Below, piece after piece: positions 3,648 to 54,797 of a stretch of 64,000 nt of DNA. Every line of letters starts with the position of its first letter. Positions within the stretch are counted from its first letter, which is position 1. The notes beneath the pieces were generated by a model, which did no database searches, was not told the DNA's origin, and saw only the letters and a program-made list of their open reading frames with translations. The position numbers and the translations under genes are program-made. Origin of the DNA: a virus; the IMG/VR virus record IMGVR_UViG_3300003322_000327, positions 1-64,000 of that record, one strand, 5' to 3'.

Positions 3648-5660
3648 TCAGAGAGTGTAGTGTTTGTCGACGAAACCGAGCTCCGGATCTCCGCGCAGGT
3701 GCCACGGGATGCGGACCACGGTCCCCTTGTCCTTGTAGTGCCGGTCATGGGCTCGAACGAAGTGTAGACGATGGCGTTTTGTCGGCTCGTCACTCTTGAT
3801 CCTATCACCGACGTAGCGCTTGCGCTCGCGGTTCAGGTCGATGACGTGGAAGTCGTAGAGCGGGAGCTTGCCTTGCGACAGCCGCTTCTTGTTCAGGGCT
3901 GCAGGCGCCTGTACCAGCGTGTACTTCGCGGCCTGGGCCTCGATGACAACGCACGCGGCGTGGAACTGCCGATCCACGTAGGCGACGAAGTCGCGCGCTT
4001 GGTCGAGGATCGTCCAGTCGCCGCTCGCCATCTCGATCAGGCACGTCTTTGGACTGTCACCCAGGACTGGCTTGTAGCCTTCCTGCTTCGGGTCCTGCAC
4101 CAGGTAGATGACGTTGAAGCCGCTGATGCGGAACTCGAACGCGCACCTCGGTGCCGGCAGGCCAACATCGCCTTCCTTGTCGCCTTCGGACGCAGCCATG
4201 ACCGCTGCCCAGTTGTGCTTGACGATGAAGGGCGTGAACTCGCCACTGAACGTAAGGTCCCGCTTCTCCTTTTGCTTCGAACCCTGTGGCTGGATGCCGA
4301 CGGCACGACCACCCTGCACAGCCTCGATGAGCTTGTGGAGACGCGAGCAGTCGTTGGCCTGAAGCACCCAGCCACCGTTCTTCTGCGCATCTAGGAGAGC
4401 ATGCAGAAGGTCAGAGAGCTCCTTCTTCTTCGCATGATCGGCCTCTGCAATCTTGAGCTCGGACTTGAGCTGCTGTTGCCGTTGCTCAGTCTTCGACATC
4501 ATGAGGCGCATGATGACCGCGCAGTCGATCAAGCGATCGATCCACGAGATGTTATCTCGAGCCGAGCTCTCGATGATGGCATCACGCTCTTCCTTGAAGC
4601 CCTCGAAGACGCCTTGCCCCTCACCACCGTTCGGTTTCTTCTCGTTGACGGCTGCGATCAGCGCCTCGCTTCCGATCTGCTGCACCATCTCTTTGGCTTG
4701 GTCCTCGGTCTGGACCAAGTGCGCCATCTTGTAGAAGTCGGCGAACGAGACCTTGTAGCCGTCACCTTCTTTCTTGTGGTTCCATCGCTCCGGGTGAGCG
4801 ACGTACTCCATGATGTGCGAGAGCTCGGCCAGCTGCTGGACGATGATCTCGTCCGGTCCGTAGTAGAGGTTCTTGATCTGTGCCTTGAGCGCCGGATAGC
4901 GAGCGAAGATTGGTAGCGCCGCATCGGCATCGGGACCATCGAGTACGCGCTTGATCTCGCTGACGTTGGCTCGCGCCTGTTGGACAGTCATCTTCGGACT
5001 GCGCCACTTGATCCAGATGTCGTTCCACAGCCGCTTGCCTTGCGCGACGACGGCCGGACCCGTGGGTTCGACGTCGGACTCGAACACATCGGTCATGGCT
5101 CGGAGCTTCTGAACCCAAGTCTTGTCGCTGGCCCCGATCGCCTGGACCTTGTCCTTCACTTCCGGGTAGGCGACGAACATGTCGCGCACCGTTCCCTCGT
5201 CGCCGTCGAAGCCGAGGACGAAGGCATCGACCAGCTTCTTGGCCTCGGCTTCGTCCTCGATCTGGCGCCAAGCAGCGAAGGTCTCGGCGTTCTTCTTCGA
5301 GCGCTCCGCTTGCGTCAGTTCGTCGTAGGGCTTGGGGCCGAGAGCGCTTTCACGAATGATCTCAGCGCACTTGCGCAGCTGCTCCTTGGCCGAGTTGCCG
5401 CGGACAGTGAGGATCGCGTCCCTGACCTTCGGGAACCGTTGGAAGACGGGATCACGCCGCCCGAGCTTGTCACCACGGGCAGCGCGCATGATCTCGGTCA
5501 GAGCCTGGAGTGCATCGGTCTCGCTGATGTCCGGGTTCTGCCATGCTTCGATGGTCGAAGCCAACCGATCGAACTGATGCTGTCTCTTCTGAACCGAAGT
5601 CTCGATGCGAGCCTTCGACATTGCAGGGTTCGTCCTCTTCTGCTTCTTGTGCTTTGCCAT
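3648..5660 (-). CDS. Large hypothetical protein, 670 aa
   Basis: The longest unknown in the left part. N-terminus is very basic (MAKHKKQKR), the middle is helical with many charged residues and recurrent 'FxxYPxxKxxI' segments (around residues 150-175 and 245-262) that may be degenerate repeats, and residues ~395-440 are a likely coiled coil. The C-terminus (FVRAHDRHYKDKGTVVRIPWHLRGD) resembles the basic tail found in several phage proteins with a 'GHxRxY...VxPHxRG' pattern. Structural or DNA-bound roles are both possible; no call made. Confidence 0.7.
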   Translation of the reverse strand: MAKHKKQKRTNPAMSKARIETSVQKRQHQFDRLASTIEAWQNPDISETDALQALTEIMRAARGDKLGRRDPVFQRFPKVRDAILTVRGNSAKEQLRKCAEIIRESALGPKPYDELTQAERSKKNAETFAAWRQIEDEAEAKKLVDAFVLGFDGDEGTVRDMFVAYPEVKDKVQAIGASDKTWVQKLRAMTDVFESDVEPTGPAVVAQGKRLWNDIWIKWRSPKMTVQQARANVSEIKRVLDGPDADAALPIFARYPALKAQIKNLYYGPDEIIVQQLAELSHIMEYVAHPERWNHKKEGDGYKVSFADFYKMAHLVQTEDQAKEMVQQIGSEALIAAVNEKKPNGGEGQGVFEGFKEERDAIIESSARDNISWIDRLIDCAVIMRLMMSKTEQRQQQLKSELKIAEADHAKKKELSDLLHALLDAQKNGGWVLQANDCSRLHKLIEAVQGGRAVGIQPQGSKQKEKRDLTFSGEFTPFIVKHNWAAVMAASEGDKEGDVGLPAPRCAFEFRISGFNVIYLVQDPKQEGYKPVLGDSPKTCLIEMASGDWTILDQARDFVAYVDRQFHAACVVIEAQAAKYTLVQAPAALNKKRLSQGKLPLYDFHVIDLNRERKRYVGDRIKSDEPTKRHRLHFVRAHDRHYKDKGTVVRIPWHLRGDPELGFVDKHYTL

Positions 5661-5668
5661 TACGCACC

Positions 5669-5965
5669 TCAGTGTCGTGTCTGGTTCTGTGATTCGGCGT
5701 ATGCCGCCATGCGTTCGTTCGCGGACCCGTATAGGACATTCATGAAGCGTCGCGGCAGGTCCATGCGCCGCAGCCTCGAGTTGTAGGAGTCGAGCAACGA
5801 TTCGAGATCGTCACCCGACATAGTCGCTTCGATGGAGTCGGGATCATCAACGGAGATGACCTCCACGACCCCACCGCTCAGGTACAGGAAACAGTCCGTG
5901 TCGAGCCTCACCATCAACTCGTCCACGGACCACACGGTCGGAGACTCGTTGGTGGTTTGGATCAT
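5669..5965 (-). CDS. Hypothetical protein, 98 aa
   Basis: The start follows AAGGACA at good spacing. The N-terminal half is a small acidic beta-type segment (CFLYLSGGVVEVISVDD), the C-terminal half is helical and basic. No family recognised. Confidence 0.55.
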   Translation of the reverse strand: MIQTTNESPTVWSVDELMVRLDTDCFLYLSGGVVEVISVDDPDSIEATMSGDDLESLLDSYNSRLRRMDLPRRFMNVLYGSANERMAAYAESQNQTRH

Positions 5966-5975
5966 TGGATTGTCC

Positions 5976-7130
5976 TTACTTGAAACCGTCGGGGTCGTCG
6001 TCTTCGATCTCCGGCTGCATCGGAGCAGCCAGTTCTTCGACCGCGTCGAACTCCGGAGTTGGGATGCCGGTCGTGAGGGAGAAGGCGTCGCCTTCGGAAG
6101 CGTAGAGCGTGGGCTGGCTTGCCGTCTGCGAGTGGAAGGCCGACATTTTAGGGTCGGTGAGGACATCGCGGACGATCGTGCGCTCGCCGTTGCGCAACAG
6201 ATAGAGCGCACCATCCTTGATCTTGACCGTCGGCTTCCACTCACCGACCACGTTCAGTTGATGGTCGTGACGGGTCGAGTCCGGATCGTCCCAATCGCCC
6301 ATCAGGTAGAAGCCCTGCTGGTTATAGGCGTATCCGAAGTCAGACAGAAACCGACCCTCGGCTTTTGCTCCACGCATCCTGACGATGCTGCCGTTGCGGA
6401 GCCGATACTTCTTGCCGGCTTCGATGGCGAAGACCGGATCGGCCAGCTTCTCCTGCACCGGCGCGGGTGCTTGTGCGGGCGGCTGAGCCGCCGACTCGTA
6501 GTTGTCGCTCTCGTTGATGCCGTTGACCTCGAACTTGATCGGCCGCGTGACGTCGAGCAGCCGATCGTCATCGATGGCGACACCCAGAGGACTGTAGGTG
6601 ACGCCTTGATCCGAGACGAACGTCGATTGGCCTTCGACAGCATGCATCTGAACCGCGCTATGGTTGCGCAGCTGGTACCGACCGCCATGGACCAGCGAGT
6701 CAAAGCCGACGTGACTCGGGATCACGGTCGTGACGTCCTTCGGTTCAGTCACGAGTGCCAGATGCGGCTTCACCGGCTTGGGACTCGTACCTTCTTCACC
6801 GACCGTAGGGGTCGTCGGCTTCTCGTCGGCGAAGAGAATCGTGTTGGCCTTGAAGCGCTCGTGGATGTTCGCCATCGTGTCTTCCGGGCCGGTGATGGTC
6901 TCGCCGGTCAGTAGGTCGGTATCACCTTGTTGGAGGGGTGCCGCCTGCATCGCGATCTTCGCGACGTCGCGAAGGAGTTCTGAGGCCGACAGCAGGCCCT
7001 GGTCGTAGGTATCGACTGCGATCTTGATCGCCAAGATGGCGAGTGCGTGGGTCGCCTCGCGTTGTTGCTTCTTCAACTCCAGGTAAACGAGGTCGATGCC
7101 GTACTTCTCGATGCTGAGGTGCTGTTGCAT
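5976..7130 (-). CDS. Protein with three 'YxLRNG' repeat domains, 384 aa
   Basis: Residues 1-70 are helical; a Pro/Thr linker follows; then three copies of a ~50-residue beta-type unit begin at about residues 149, 238 and 306. Each opens with G-x-Y-x-LRN followed by a strand, a variable turn and a second strand. The same unit appears twice in the protein at 9790-10680. Repeated small beta domains suggest a binding scaffold or adaptor. C-terminus is acidic. Specific role unknown. Confidence 0.65.
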   Translation of the reverse strand: MQQHLSIEKYGIDLVYLELKKQQREATHALAILAIKIAVDTYDQGLLSASELLRDVAKIAMQAAPLQQGDTDLLTGETITGPEDTMANIHERFKANTILFADEKPTTPTVGEEGTSPKPVKPHLALVTEPKDVTTVIPSHVGFDSLVHGGRYQLRNHSAVQMHAVEGQSTFVSDQGVTYSPLGVAIDDDRLLDVTRPIKFEVNGINESDNYESAAQPPAQAPAPVQEKLADPVFAIEAGKKYRLRNGSIVRMRGAKAEGRFLSDFGYAYNQQGFYLMGDWDDPDSTRHDHQLNVVGEWKPTVKIKDGALYLLRNGERTIVRDVLTDPKMSAFHSQTASQPTLYASEGDAFSLTTGIPTPEFDAVEELAAPMQPEIEDDDPDGFK

Positions 7131-43684: not shown

Positions 43685-44359
43685 TCAGCCGTTCAGCTCG
43701 CCGAGCTTGCTCTTGAGGAAGGTGCAGGTGCGATCCTTCGAGCGCAGTTCCTTGAGCATGTGCTCGACCTCGCGCTTCGTGAACCGCGCACGCGAACGGA
43801 TGCGGTTGAGCGCTTCGACGTCGGTCTCTTGCTTGATGGCTTCCACGAACATGAGGAAGCCGGAGTCGAGGGCGTTCGGGTCTTCCTTCTCGGCCTCGAC
43901 CATGGTCTTGTTGTTCTCCGAGAGCTCTTGCACCGAGACGATCTCGGCTCCGGAGTTCTGGATGCCACGCGCCGCTTGCGCTTCGTCGATCTGGCGTTGG
44001 CGGGCTTCGAGGCGCTCGCGCTCCTCGTCGGCGCCGTCTTCGGCCAGGATCTTGGCGGCACGCTCGGCCGAGATGAGTTCCATGACGCGGCTGTTGACCG
44101 CGTTGCGGAACTCGGAGCTCTCGAGCAGCTGCGAGCGCGGGATCTGGTCGGTGATGCGGATCGGCAGCCACGTCATCGGCAGGAACAGGTCATCGACCTT
44201 GGTGCCGTTGCGCTTCGGGATGCCGATGTGGACCTCACCGGCTTGCTTGGCGCGGCTCTGCGCACTGGAGTTCAGCACCCAGATCGGCGCGCGATCGTTG
44301 CTGTCCTGCTCCAGATCGTCGATGGTGACTTCGTCTTTCGTGTTGACCAATGGGATCAT
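43685..44359 (-). CDS. Hypothetical protein, 224 aa
   Basis: N-terminal half has 'IWVLNSSAQ...VHIGIPKRNGTKVDDLFLPMTWLPIRIT', a compact beta-type pattern; the C-terminal half is a long helical region with a possible coiled coil (RERLEARQRQIDEAQ). It looks like a conserved jumbo-phage hypothetical protein; structural role possible. The 77-bp gap to the next gene holds nothing clear. Confidence 0.55.
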   Translation of the reverse strand: MIPLVNTKDEVTIDDLEQDSNDRAPIWVLNSSAQSRAKQAGEVHIGIPKRNGTKVDDLFLPMTWLPIRITDQIPRSQLLESSEFRNAVNSRVMELISAERAAKILAEDGADEERERLEARQRQIDEAQAARGIQNSGAEIVSVQELSENNKTMVEAEKEDPNALDSGFLMFVEAIKQETDVEALNRIRSRARFTKREVEHMLKELRSKDRTCTFLKSKLGELNG

Positions 44360-44444: not shown

Positions 44445-44741
44445 TTAGGTCTTGACCGTCACGAGTGTGTGTACCTCGTAGACATGTACGTTGGAACGCG
44501 CGAGGTAGCGATCGGGCGTCAGGATCGTGGCTACGAACTTGTAGCTCTCATCGAGCTGGTAGGAGTCCTCGACGACAGTGAAGACACGGTTCTCGGCGAA
44601 CACTGCCTTGTCACTGGTCTCGAACCAGAGTACGTAGCCTTCGGAAAGGATGTAGCCAGAGCTCAGAAACTGAGCTCCGACCGGGAGCATGGCCGAGGTT
44701 TGACCGTGGTCCTTGAGCTTGACCTTGATGACGTTCTTCAT
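44445..44741 (-). CDS. DUF7352-like protein, 98 aa
   Basis: Pattern LPVGAQFLSS...GYVLWFETS...ENRVFTVV...YKFVATIL...NVHVYEV matches small phage/bacterial proteins of the DUF7352 type (P-x-GA, LW, R-x-F, T, HV-x-E). No function is known to me. Sits just after the Tad1/Acb2-like gene with only an ATGG overlap, so it is co-expressed with it and may belong to the same counter-defence set. Confidence 0.55.
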   Translation of the reverse strand: MKNVIKVKLKDHGQTSAMLPVGAQFLSSGYILSEGYVLWFETSDKAVFAENRVFTVVEDSYQLDESYKFVATILTPDRYLARSNVHVYEVHTLVTVKT

Positions 44742-45094
44742 GGGGCTTGGGTTCCAGTAATCCCTCTCTCCCGACGATCATTCGTTCTGGCCTCGAAGGC
44801 CTGGAGTGCGGCCTGCATCGATGCGATCGCACTCTTGTTGTACTCGGACGGGCACTTGGCATCCTGTCGCTTGACGCGGTCGATCAGGATCGCCAGCATG
44901 TGCTCGTTGGTGAAGCCGTTGATGCCGACCGATGCCGGGTTCCCGTTCTGGAACTCGATGGTGGTAATGAAACCACCCGACTCCGAGCGATGCTCGATGT
45001 AGTACTGGATGCCCAGGGCATCGGTCGTCTGACTCGTGCTGATCTCGACCCCGTTGTGATCCGCGTAGATGACGCTGTTGGTGCCGGCAATCAT
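44738..45094 (-). CDS. Tad1/Acb2-hairpin-type cyclic-nucleotide sponge candidate, 118 aa
   Basis: Residues ~61-115 match the helical hairpin shared by Thoeris anti-defence Tad1 and CBASS anti-defence Acb2 families: ING-F-TNEHMLAILIDRV..., then SAIASMQAALQAFEARTNDRRERGITGT. The N-terminal ~55 residues are beta-type (IQYYIEHRSESGGFITTIEFQNG), as in Tad1. Such proteins sequester immune signal nucleotides (gcADPR or CBASS cyclic oligonucleotides). Ligand residues cannot be verified by eye. Start behind GGGAGCAGCA. Confidence 0.75.
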   Translation of the reverse strand: MIAGTNSVIYADHNGVEISTSQTTDALGIQYYIEHRSESGGFITTIEFQNGNPASVGINGFTNEHMLAILIDRVKRQDAKCPSEYNKSAIASMQAALQAFEARTNDRRERGITGTQAP

Positions 45095-45705
45095 TGCTGC
45101 TCCCGCTGACCCGGGTCTTGCGCAGCCCACTGGCGATCGGAGACCTCACGCTGCTCGGGCGGATCTTCGCGGTGCTCCTTCGCCATCCAGCCACCGGCCG
45201 GATCTTCGGACGGTACCTGCGGCTTGAGGTCAGGCACCTGCTCCACGTCGGTGCGACCTTCCGGTGGTTCGTTGCCGCGCGCCGGCTGTTCCTTCTCGGC
45301 CTTGTGCGCAGCGAGCGCAGCTTCGAGGTCGATCACGGCTTCACGCACCTGGTTCGGCACCTCGGTAGACGTCGGCTCGTCGGCCGACGCCGTCTGGTCT
45401 GGGTTGTTGGCTGCCGCTTGCGCAGCGACGTCACGCATCGCTTGCTGGTAGCCGAGTTGGTGACCCTTTTCCAGAGCGATGCGGGCTTGGCACTCGTGCG
45501 CCAGCGCCAGGATCGACTGCAGGTCGCTGATCACGTACTGCATGTTGCGGTACGTGTTCTTGGCGATCACGGCGGTGTGATCGTGGCCACGTGGCACGAT
45601 GCCGACCGACAGGCCGACACCGGGCTCGAAGTAGCCGATGAGTTGCATGAGCGGGATCTGCGGGTCCGGCGCACGCACTTGTTCACTTTGGGTTTGGTCG
45701 GTCAT
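45091..45705 (-). CDS. Hypothetical protein, 204 aa
   Basis: Start at ATG behind AGGAGATAGTG. N-terminal ~85 residues are ordered (LMQLIGYFEPGVGLSVGIV, YRNMQYVISDLQSILALAHE); the rest is Pro/Glu/Gln-rich and disordered-looking. Encoded between the NADAR and Tad1-like genes, so plausibly part of the same transcript that starts at the GTAAAGA motif. Confidence 0.55.
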   Translation of the reverse strand: MTDQTQSEQVRAPDPQIPLMQLIGYFEPGVGLSVGIVPRGHDHTAVIAKNTYRNMQYVISDLQSILALAHECQARIALEKGHQLGYQQAMRDVAAQAAANNPDQTASADEPTSTEVPNQVREAVIDLEAALAAHKAEKEQPARGNEPPEGRTDVEQVPDLKPQVPSEDPAGGWMAKEHREDPPEQREVSDRQWAAQDPGQREQQ

Positions 45706-45728: not shown

Positions 45729-45740
45729 TCTTTACAGTTT
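45729..45740 (-). promoter_or_regulatory. GTAAAGA late-promoter-like motif
   Basis: Minus-strand AAACTGTAAAGA overlapping the NADAR gene's stop codon, about 24 bases upstream of the next start. Would drive the Tad1-like unit. Confidence 0.55.
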
Positions 45741-46172
45741 CAACTTTAGGCGAAGTCGGGCCCTGACTTGCATGAGGATCGTACCGAGGTGATTCAGGCC
45801 CTGACCGTCGACTGTACCCCAGAAAGTATCACCGTGGTTGTTGCCTTCGATCAGCTCTGCGTTGCGAGTGCTGAGAAGCAGCTGCCCGATCTCAGGACCA
45901 GAAGTGAACTTCGAAAGCACGATGTTGTGCATGAAGTGCAACTTCACGGTCTCCCAATCGGGTCGTCTCTCGATTGAGCGACCGACTCGCTTTGCCAAGT
46001 ATGGAGTCACTTGCGCTCGAACGAGTTCGCGGTCGTGCGCTGTCTTGGCCTTCATGGCCTGAAAGGCGTGCTCGCTCGTCTTCCACGTCTGGTGCCGGTA
46101 CGTGAATTCGTGCGCGTAGAAGTTGGACAAGAACTCGTACTCGCCTTCGAACCTGTCGATGACGGAGGGCAT
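45732..46172 (-). CDS. NADAR-family (YbiA-like) protein, 146 aa
   Basis: Conserved features of the NADAR/DUF1768 fold: FLSNFY at 14-19, SEHAFQAMKA at 33-42 (with the catalytic-type Glu), and NNHGDTFWG at 111-119. Characterised relatives cleave N-glycosidic bonds in ADP-ribose-type molecules, and some remove ADP-ribose from guanine in DNA, reversing DarT2-type toxins. In a phage this would protect DNA or nucleotides from host ADP-ribosylation. Length is normal for the family. Start behind AAGGACTGATC. Confidence 0.85.
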   Translation of the reverse strand: MPSVIDRFEGEYEFLSNFYAHEFTYRHQTWKTSEHAFQAMKAKTAHDRELVRAQVTPYLAKRVGRSIERRPDWETVKLHFMHNIVLSKFTSGPEIGQLLLSTRNAELIEGNNHGDTFWGTVDGQGLNHLGTILMQVRARLRLKLKL

Positions 46173-46182
46173 GATCAGTCCT

Positions 46183-47700
46183 TCAGTAGGTGGTGAGCTT
46201 GAAGCGTGGTCGAGTCGCTGCCACGTACAGAGACCGGAACGACTCGCGCTTGTTCGGGTTCGCCAGGATGTCGGCTTGGTCGACGTACACTTCGTCGAGG
46301 GTCGAGCCCTGGAGTCGGTGCGTCGTCATTGCGTAGCCGTGTCGGATGTCGGTGAACTTGTTCTTCAGCGACCAGAAGTCGGCCCACAGTTCCTTGCGTT
46401 TGCGGCTGTCCTTTTCACGCTGTGCCTTCGAAGCGCGCTTGTTCAGCATCGAACTCAGCTCACCCGGGTCTTCTGCCTTGAAGAGCGTGAGGTGCGAGTT
46501 GTGGAGGCTGTACGCCGTGGCTTCGAGCTTGCCTTCCGGGTACTCGAAGACACGCTCGTGCACTTCCTTGATCTGGAACTCTTCGTCGGTGAAGGCCAGG
46601 ATCTGACCCATCGAGTCGACCAATGGTTCAGCCAGCAGAATCATGTCGTCAGGCTCGAACCCATCCTTGATCTTGAAGCCAAGCGCCTCGCGGATGATTC
46701 GGTTGTAGACGTTGACGGTCTTGTTTCGCCAGCACGCGACCTTGGTCGTTCGCCAGTCTTCGAGACCACGGCCCCGGATCGAGTCCAGCATCTGGTCCTT
46801 GCTGACTACGAAGATGCCTTCGCGTCCGTCGTTGTCGTCAACAATCGGCGACTTGTAGACCTTGCCTTTCAAGCAGTTGCGGATCGCAACCGAGAGACCG
46901 AGCAGCTGATTGTCGAAGCGCTTGACTTCGGTCAGCAGCGCCTTGAACTCCGGCTTCGCCATGCCCCAGACCAGAGACCTGGACTCACCGACTGGGTTGA
47001 GCTGCGCTGGATCACCGACGAAGATCGCACGCCACCCGAGCTCTTCGCACAGGTTGCGCAGAATCTCCGCCAGGAACTCCGGGATCATGCCGGCTTCATC
47101 GATGACGAGCACCGGCCTGGCTCCGAGTTCGGGAGTGCGACCCGTCTGCTTCAGCACCTTCTCGCCGTCCTCGGCTACCATGCGGAGTCCGAGCAGCGAG
47201 TACGTGGTCTTGCACGTCTCACCGACGAAATCGGACAGCACCTTGGTCGCCTTGTTGGTAGGTGCCGAGAAGTAGAAGTTGTGGCCCTTGATCTGTCGCA
47301 CCTTGTCCATGAGGAACGACTTGCCGGTGCCTGCGTAGCCCTTGATCACGCAGTACGGCTCATCGCTGGCAAGCCAACGGTTGATCATCGCCCACGCCTT
47401 GGCTTGACCCTGCGTCATCTCCTTGCCGCCAGCGAGTTCTGAACTCACAGGGACTGAGACGAACGGCAGGTCGGTGCGCCCAGGAATGGCAATAGGCGAG
47501 GCGACCGGTGTGATGCGCCTCGCCATCATGGCGTCGAGGGTCTTCGTGTTCGCGTTCGGTGGTGCGGGCTTGAACCCTTGCCTCGCATCACGCTCGTACA
47601 TCAGCGCACTAAGGATAAGCTCGATGCGGCCGGTCGCGCCTTCGCGGTGTGAGTCGACCAACAAGTCGACAAGAGCCTTGGGATCTCGGAGGTCAGACAT
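46183..47700 (-). CDS. SF1B DNA helicase (Dda/RecD-like), 505 aa
   Basis: Walker A GYAGTGKS (121-128), PTNKA (147-151, motif Ia), DEAGM (201-205, Walker B), GDPAQL (229-234, motif III), and a C-terminal TTHRLQGSTL...LYVAATR pair that are motifs V and VI. The whole is the size of T4 Dda-type helicases, which act 5'-3' at replication start or in recombination. An ~100-residue N-terminal extension is not recognised. Overlaps the upstream gene. Confidence 0.9.
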   Translation of the reverse strand: MSDLRDPKALVDLLVDSHREGATGRIELILSALMYERDARQGFKPAPPNANTKTLDAMMARRITPVASPIAIPGRTDLPFVSVPVSSELAGGKEMTQGQAKAWAMINRWLASDEPYCVIKGYAGTGKSFLMDKVRQIKGHNFYFSAPTNKATKVLSDFVGETCKTTYSLLGLRMVAEDGEKVLKQTGRTPELGARPVLVIDEAGMIPEFLAEILRNLCEELGWRAIFVGDPAQLNPVGESRSLVWGMAKPEFKALLTEVKRFDNQLLGLSVAIRNCLKGKVYKSPIVDDNDGREGIFVVSKDQMLDSIRGRGLEDWRTTKVACWRNKTVNVYNRIIREALGFKIKDGFEPDDMILLAEPLVDSMGQILAFTDEEFQIKEVHERVFEYPEGKLEATAYSLHNSHLTLFKAEDPGELSSMLNKRASKAQREKDSRKRKELWADFWSLKNKFTDIRHGYAMTTHRLQGSTLDEVYVDQADILANPNKRESFRSLYVAATRPRFKLTTY

Positions 47701-54301: not shown

Positions 54302-54585
54302 TCGAGATCAAGAAAGGCGGCAAGTACTACCTGCACGGCGCTTACCCTGCCGAAGAGGTCATCGTCATTCAAGCACCTGACGCGCCAGGCGCCGATGTGC
54401 TGGTCAAGCATCCGACAGGTCCCACGTATCAGAGTCCGGCCCGCATGCACCTGACTCGCCGACAGGCCGACGAGGCGACGCTGAGCGAGAAGATGACGCA
54501 GCTCGCGAACTTCAGAGCCAAGGTGACCGAACTTGGACTCGAGGTCGAGAGCATCGAGGTTCGCATGAAGGAGGACCAGACATGA
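54298..54585 (+). CDS. Hypothetical protein, 95 aa
   Basis: N-terminal half is a small beta unit (GGKYYLHG...VIVIQAPDAPG...DVLVKHPTG) reminiscent of the 'YxLRNG' unit elsewhere; C-terminal half is a coiled-coil helix. Function unknown. Confidence 0.5.
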   Translation: MIEIKKGGKYYLHGAYPAEEVIVIQAPDAPGADVLVKHPTGPTYQSPARMHLTRRQADEATLSEKMTQLANFRAKVTELGLEVESIEVRMKEDQT

Positions 54586-54797
54586 CTGTCTGCATTGCCG
54601 TCGGCAAGGAACTCACGGTCGCCAAGTGTCCTCTGAACAAGGGCAGCTGCTACTGGCAGCATCGGGAGACGCACGAATGCAAGGCTACGACTCAAGAACT
54701 GACAGTGCAGGAGTTCTGCGCTCACGTCGGTCTGAGGGGGAGCCCGAGCGAGGAACAGATCGGTCGATTCCAGATCAAGCTCCGACAGATGCTGTAA
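54582..54797 (+). CDS. Small Cys-containing protein, 71 aa
   Basis: Five Cys (near residues 4, 16, 23, 33, 45) with a C-P-x5-C-x9-C spacing that could bind zinc. The TAA stop lies in the GTAAATA motif used upstream of the polymerase. Confidence 0.55.
   Translation: MTVCIAVGKELTVAKCPLNKGSCYWQHRETHECKATTQELTVQEFCAHVGLRGSPSEEQIGRFQIKLRQML

Follow-up and report, generated by a model that had tools for sequence, protein, structure and literature searches.

The locus discussed here raises the question of whether a small gene in an uncultured viral genome encodes a Tad1-type nucleotide sponge and, if so, which signal it might capture. The stretch analysed (the window, 64,000 nucleotides) comes from a virus record of 109,605 bp whose DNA polymerase shares 44% identity, over 98% of the length, with those of BcepSaruman and BcepSauron, two jumbo phages of Burkholderia, and 40% with that of Achromobacter phage Motura. 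A megablast search of 24 kb against named phages gave no match at the DNA level. Judged from these data, the record probably covers part of the jumbo-phage-like genome of an uncultured virus. The tad1 homologue occupies positions 44738..45094 on the minus strand. The reading frame runs exactly from 45094 to 44738, starts with ATG, comprises 118 codons and is open over its full length. A gene model self-trained on the window also predicts it, inside a dense leftward operon. Stop/start overlaps of 4 bp were found on both sides of the gene: the upstream gene g86 (45091..45705, minus strand, 204 aa) ends at 45091, and the downstream gene (44445..44741, minus strand), encoding a DUF7352 protein of 98 aa (PF24043, E 2.4e-8), starts at 44741. 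Scans for promoters and terminators revealed nothing beyond chance level, and tRNA and Rfam searches returned zero matches.

Using the single sequence of the window protein as query against the PDB, we recovered CmTad1 (8kbb, E 1.7e-6, residues 44-116), phiKZ gp184 (E 1.3e-4) and CbTad1 (7uav, E 0.0025), and the confident sequence matches were to Tad1 only. A viral scan with the window protein alone found zero relatives; an alignment of near relatives as query succeeded. Two alignments were prepared. The first (A1, 13 sequences including 12 phage relatives) was too diverse for use in a pattern scan, and the second (A4) holds 28 window, viral and genome sequences. The A4 profile found CmTad1 (5.1e-23) and CbTad1 (1.1e-14), though A4 contains neither. 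A profile of classical Tad1, consisting of five sequences only (three from phages, CbTad1 and CmTad1), gave the window protein 58 bits over residues 38-116, compared to at most 5.4 bits in 1000 shuffles. A profile made from the remaining 27 sequences of A4 gave it 101 bits, and shuffles did not exceed 8.3.

The original prediction had assigned the C-terminal half to the helical hairpin shared by Tad1 and Acb2. Indeed, the hairpin (residues 58-118, INGFTNEHM...RERGITGTQAP; 44741..44923, minus strand), placed by the classical-Tad1 profile together with the model helices, scored 44.5 bits on its own against that profile, again versus 5.4 bits or less for shuffles. The prediction had further described the N-terminal half as divergent, and this description holds: the first 57 aa alone reached a non-significant 3.2 bits against classical Tad1 and a weak 12.5 bits against close relatives. 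In A4 the close relatives align across this region via a Y/H-x-D-x-N-G-V motif. The match to classical Tad1 reaches the last N-terminal strand, and that to close relatives covers the whole length.

A comparison with the Pfam hairpin family, which had been proposed as a check, did not bear out the assignment, since PF24729 (Acb2_Tad1_hairpin) did not match the window protein above the curated cut-off. This model is narrow: it detects 3 of the 28 A4 members (E <= 0.1) and misses the other 25, and we therefore set it aside as an arbiter of membership. PHROG_2428, a family listed as of unknown function, matches every one of the 28, and the window protein over residues 17-116 (E 2.8e-26). On sequence grounds this family could be renamed Tad1-like. 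Because PF24729 misses 25 of 28 members of this Tad1 branch, phage counter-defence is under-counted.

Tad1 proteins are built from strands beta1-beta4 followed by helices alpha1-alpha2, and Acb2 has a different layout (PMC12043709). An AlphaFold2 monomer model of the window protein, computed on A4 (mean pLDDT 80.5), shows four strands (residues 5-11, 16-22, 29-35 and 42-47) and two long helices (63-80 and 84-109). Confidence in the N-terminal strands is moderate (block pLDDT 66-84). The predicted antiparallel beta1-beta4 sheet followed by two long helices corresponds to the Tad1 layout, and the earlier reading of the N-terminal region as beta-type and Tad1-like is thereby supported, as are the paired helices. 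The model does not have the Acb2 layout of a short protein with an N-terminal helix and no beta-sheet. Acb2 (anti-CBASS 2; 94 aa in PaMx41) has the C-terminal hairpin family (PF24729) in common with Tad1 but, unlike the window protein, carries a short N-terminal helix and no sheet. Since the four-strand N-terminal sheet is present in the model, we assign the protein to the Tad1 type rather than the Acb2 type. Fold searches of the PDB at E<=1e-3 returned CmTad1 chains only (apo, cAAA- or cAAG-bound; E 1.4-3.4e-4, TM 0.66-0.74), with the next-best match at E 0.73. In BFVD, seven matches had E<=1e-3, among them two named Acb2/Tad1 hairpin proteins. CmTad1 (8kbb, 8kbc, 8kbd) is thus the best match in both sequence and fold. 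It shares with the window protein the beta-sheet and helical hairpin, the N/R/R anchor residues, and the FQ.G and NG motifs. Identity in the structural alignment is 20-23%, and the window protein differs by a loop one residue shorter and by loss of the F82/Y87 equivalents.

In the pocket of CbTad1 (7uav, 7uaw, 8smd; from a Clostridium botulinum prophage), F82 (stacking), N92, R109 and R113 are reported to contact the ligand (Leavitt et al. 2022). The letters at these four positions agree with the chain numbering of 7uav. The profile match to the window protein extends over most of the CbTad1 length. The equivalents of N92, R109 and R113 do not vary across 41 aligned homologues; in the window protein they are N86, R103 and R107 (R103 and R107 at 44774..44788, minus strand). 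Position F82 behaves differently. In its column 28 of the 41 sequences have L, eight F and three Q, and an aromatic residue occurs in only nine, including CbTad1 and CmTad1. The stacking aromatic is absent from the window protein, which has Q77 or a gap here. We presume that F82 sets ligand specificity and does not define the family. The F87 column is aromatic in 39 sequences of the same alignment, and the window protein has C81. Relative to CbTad1, A84 is deleted and R57 is replaced by P53. The alpha1-alpha2 loop (residues 77-86, QDAKCPSEYN; 44837..44866, minus strand) is one residue shorter than in CbTad1 and CmTad1, and a loop shortened by one residue occurs in 28 of the 41 aligned sequences. 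An alternative loop alignment shifts the gap towards the N-terminus by one or two residues, and the aromatic is missing either way.

Consequently, ligand choice cannot be read from the characterised Tad1s, because the loop is shortened and F82 lost. The original prediction had left ligand specificity open on account of the N-terminal half. The openness stands, and its main reason is the altered loop (shorter, F82 and F87 lost), not the N-terminal half alone. It is possible, at somewhat below an even chance in our estimate, that the short-loop branch has kept the Tad1 fold with a retuned gcADPR/CDN pocket and binds another signal, no longer the classical ligands. This would be a sub-case of the sponge function, so that confidence in the two overlaps. 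Conceivable ligands of such a pocket, at the same tentative level, are cyclic oligonucleotides of another kind bound at the trimer interface, a gcADPR isomer or another TIR product. The shorter loop in 28 of 41 sequences, the replacement of F82 by L in 28 sequences and by Q in the window protein, and the exchange of F87 for C, next to an invariant N92/R109/R113 set, are consistent with retuning, and so are the tad1 products at the same locus in two related contigs (L187 and L089), whose loops VDKKMPC and LNAKVAC also lack both aromatics. However, packing on a base may still be possible with a leucine, and the gcADPR/CDN and CTN sites of Tad1 are separate, so the loop change may merely weaken one of them (PMC12043709).

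In a phylogenetic tree the window protein falls inside a 26-member clade (support 96/95), which it shares with Acinetobacter prophage-type, uncultured viral and Polaromonas sequences. Nearly all members have a helix-helix loop one residue shorter and have lost F82. A 152-aa protein of Acinetobacter prophages and phage ABMM1 is one such member, with 49% identity over residues 42-115; it differs in its longer N-terminal region and comes from an unrelated phage. The branch of the window protein is long (1.5 changes per site), and hence its exact position within the short-loop clade is not fixed, and drift or a changed function are possible. A decaying or non-functional tad1 remnant would also explain a long branch and lost loop aromatics, but we regard this as extremely unlikely: the frame is full-length and start/stop-coupled on both sides, the anchor residues are intact, and the gene is kept in place in related contigs despite divergence to 35-37% identity. 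Two further short-loop Tad1s (L092 and L093) are 206 aa long, with an extra N-terminal region of about 90 residues whose start resembles a signal or membrane segment. In L094 (5140-6237) the reading frame of a Tad1 hairpin protein continues upstream for about 250 residues, which reflects either a fusion or an internal start that was overlooked.

The Tad1 assignment is supported jointly by the profile scores, the predicted fold, the invariant residues and the tree, and we conclude that the gene very probably encodes a Tad1-family nucleotide sponge, as originally predicted. Oligomerisation, binding and protection are inferred for the window protein by analogy with solved Tad1s, in which the N-terminal beta-sheet and C-terminal hairpin pair into dimers and, as trimers of dimers, into hexamers. 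Such an assembly would sequester, without cleaving them, cyclic nucleotide signals made by Thoeris (gcADPR) and/or CBASS (cyclic di-/trinucleotides), and suicide effectors would then not be triggered during infection. A jumbo-phage precedent for this role exists, since phiKZ Tad1 (gp184/PHIKZ184) is injected (PMC10449902) and blocks both CBASS and Thoeris (PMC13282480). Its hairpin matches the window protein, as noted above (E 1.3e-4). Unlike the window protein, gp184 has 230 aa with a long N-terminal extension, is packaged in the virion and keeps the long-form loop (QAGPF). That gp184 is an injected virion protein and a chain in PDB 8y6v, and that a baseplate gene is found close to the ABMM1 relative, could suggest that the window protein is itself virion-associated or structural, with the Tad1 fold serving as an oligomerisation module and not as a sponge. 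We consider this very unlikely, given the description of phiKZ Tad1 as an injected blocker of CBASS and Thoeris, the replication/helicase surroundings of the window gene, with no recognised virion gene among them, and the lack of a gp184-like N-terminal extension.

The original prediction had placed the gene in an accessory block, and this proved partly correct. Upstream of g86 lies a gene for a 146-aa NADAR-domain protein (45732..46172, minus strand; PF08719, E 1.5e-28), predicted to act in guanine de-ADP-ribosylation. The syntenic anchors are a Dda-like helicase gene upstream (46183..47700, minus strand; phrog_325, E 1.7e-76) and a phrog_17686 gene downstream (43685..44359, minus strand), identified by PHROG match and synteny. 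In the closest contig that we found (L187, 104 kb) the genes run from helicase-like g90 through g89, Dda helicase, NADAR, g86 and tad1 to the phrog_17686 gene, and a 136-kb contig (L188/L089) has the same order minus NADAR. The tad1 products of both are 35-37% identical to the window protein, yet hold the same position. Hence tad1 is retained in the two related contigs, while NADAR (46% identity in L187, not found in L188) and the DUF7352 gene (no match in related contigs) come and go. Around the phrog_17686 homologue of BcepSaruman and Motura no tad1 was found, and neither phage is among the tblastn matches listed for named phages. A search for Tad2 (PF11195) anywhere in the contig was negative. 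In L188 the Dda helicase match is split (4480-4590 and 5980-7101 within 4480-7101) with about 1.4 kb between, as if interrupted by an intron, intein or other insertion.

The coupled gene g86 also lies beside tad1 in both related contigs (L187 7180-7542; L188 7155-7649). Searches of Pfam, the PDB and named phages with its product found nothing, and a low-confidence model (pTM 0.33), which has a core of three strands and a long helix with a disordered tail, gave no significant fold match. Tested members of the NADAR superfamily, one of them from a phage, strip ADP-ribose off guanine in DNA, and it has been suggested that such proteins shield phage DNA against ADP-ribosyl toxins of the host (PMC11125620). 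The best named relatives of the NADAR protein are from Bacillus phage SPbetaL3 and Acidovorax phage ACP17 (48-49% identity). It is suggestive that NADAR and tad1 would be two nearby genes against NAD-derived attack, and two contigs are too few for a functional unit to be claimed. A broader proposal, which we hold to be rather doubtful as a whole, is that short-loop Tad1s, as found in jumbo-phage-like contigs and in Acinetobacter prophages, have an aromatic-less pocket for another nucleotide signal than that bound by classical Tad1 and here also work within a conserved NADAR-g86-Tad1 cassette, which would blunt NAD-derived defences on two fronts, gcADPR-type signalling and nucleic-acid ADP-ribosylation.

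The Tad1 family, its mechanism and its occurrence in jumbo phages are already known. As far as our searches show, the window member, the short-loop branch mostly missed by Pfam and the conserved NADAR-g86-tad1 order are new. A Pfam-blank gene thereby becomes a testable counter-defence candidate, and the altered loop offers a natural variant series for what sets Tad1 ligand choice. Elsewhere in the window (54582-54797, plus strand) and in L183 (7620-7889) we noted a small conserved protein, common to BcepSaruman gp189. Finally, in T4-like and OBP-like phages (L002, L004, L005, L006 and L007) a tad1 homologue is repeatedly followed by an RNA ligase gene as its immediate downstream neighbour.
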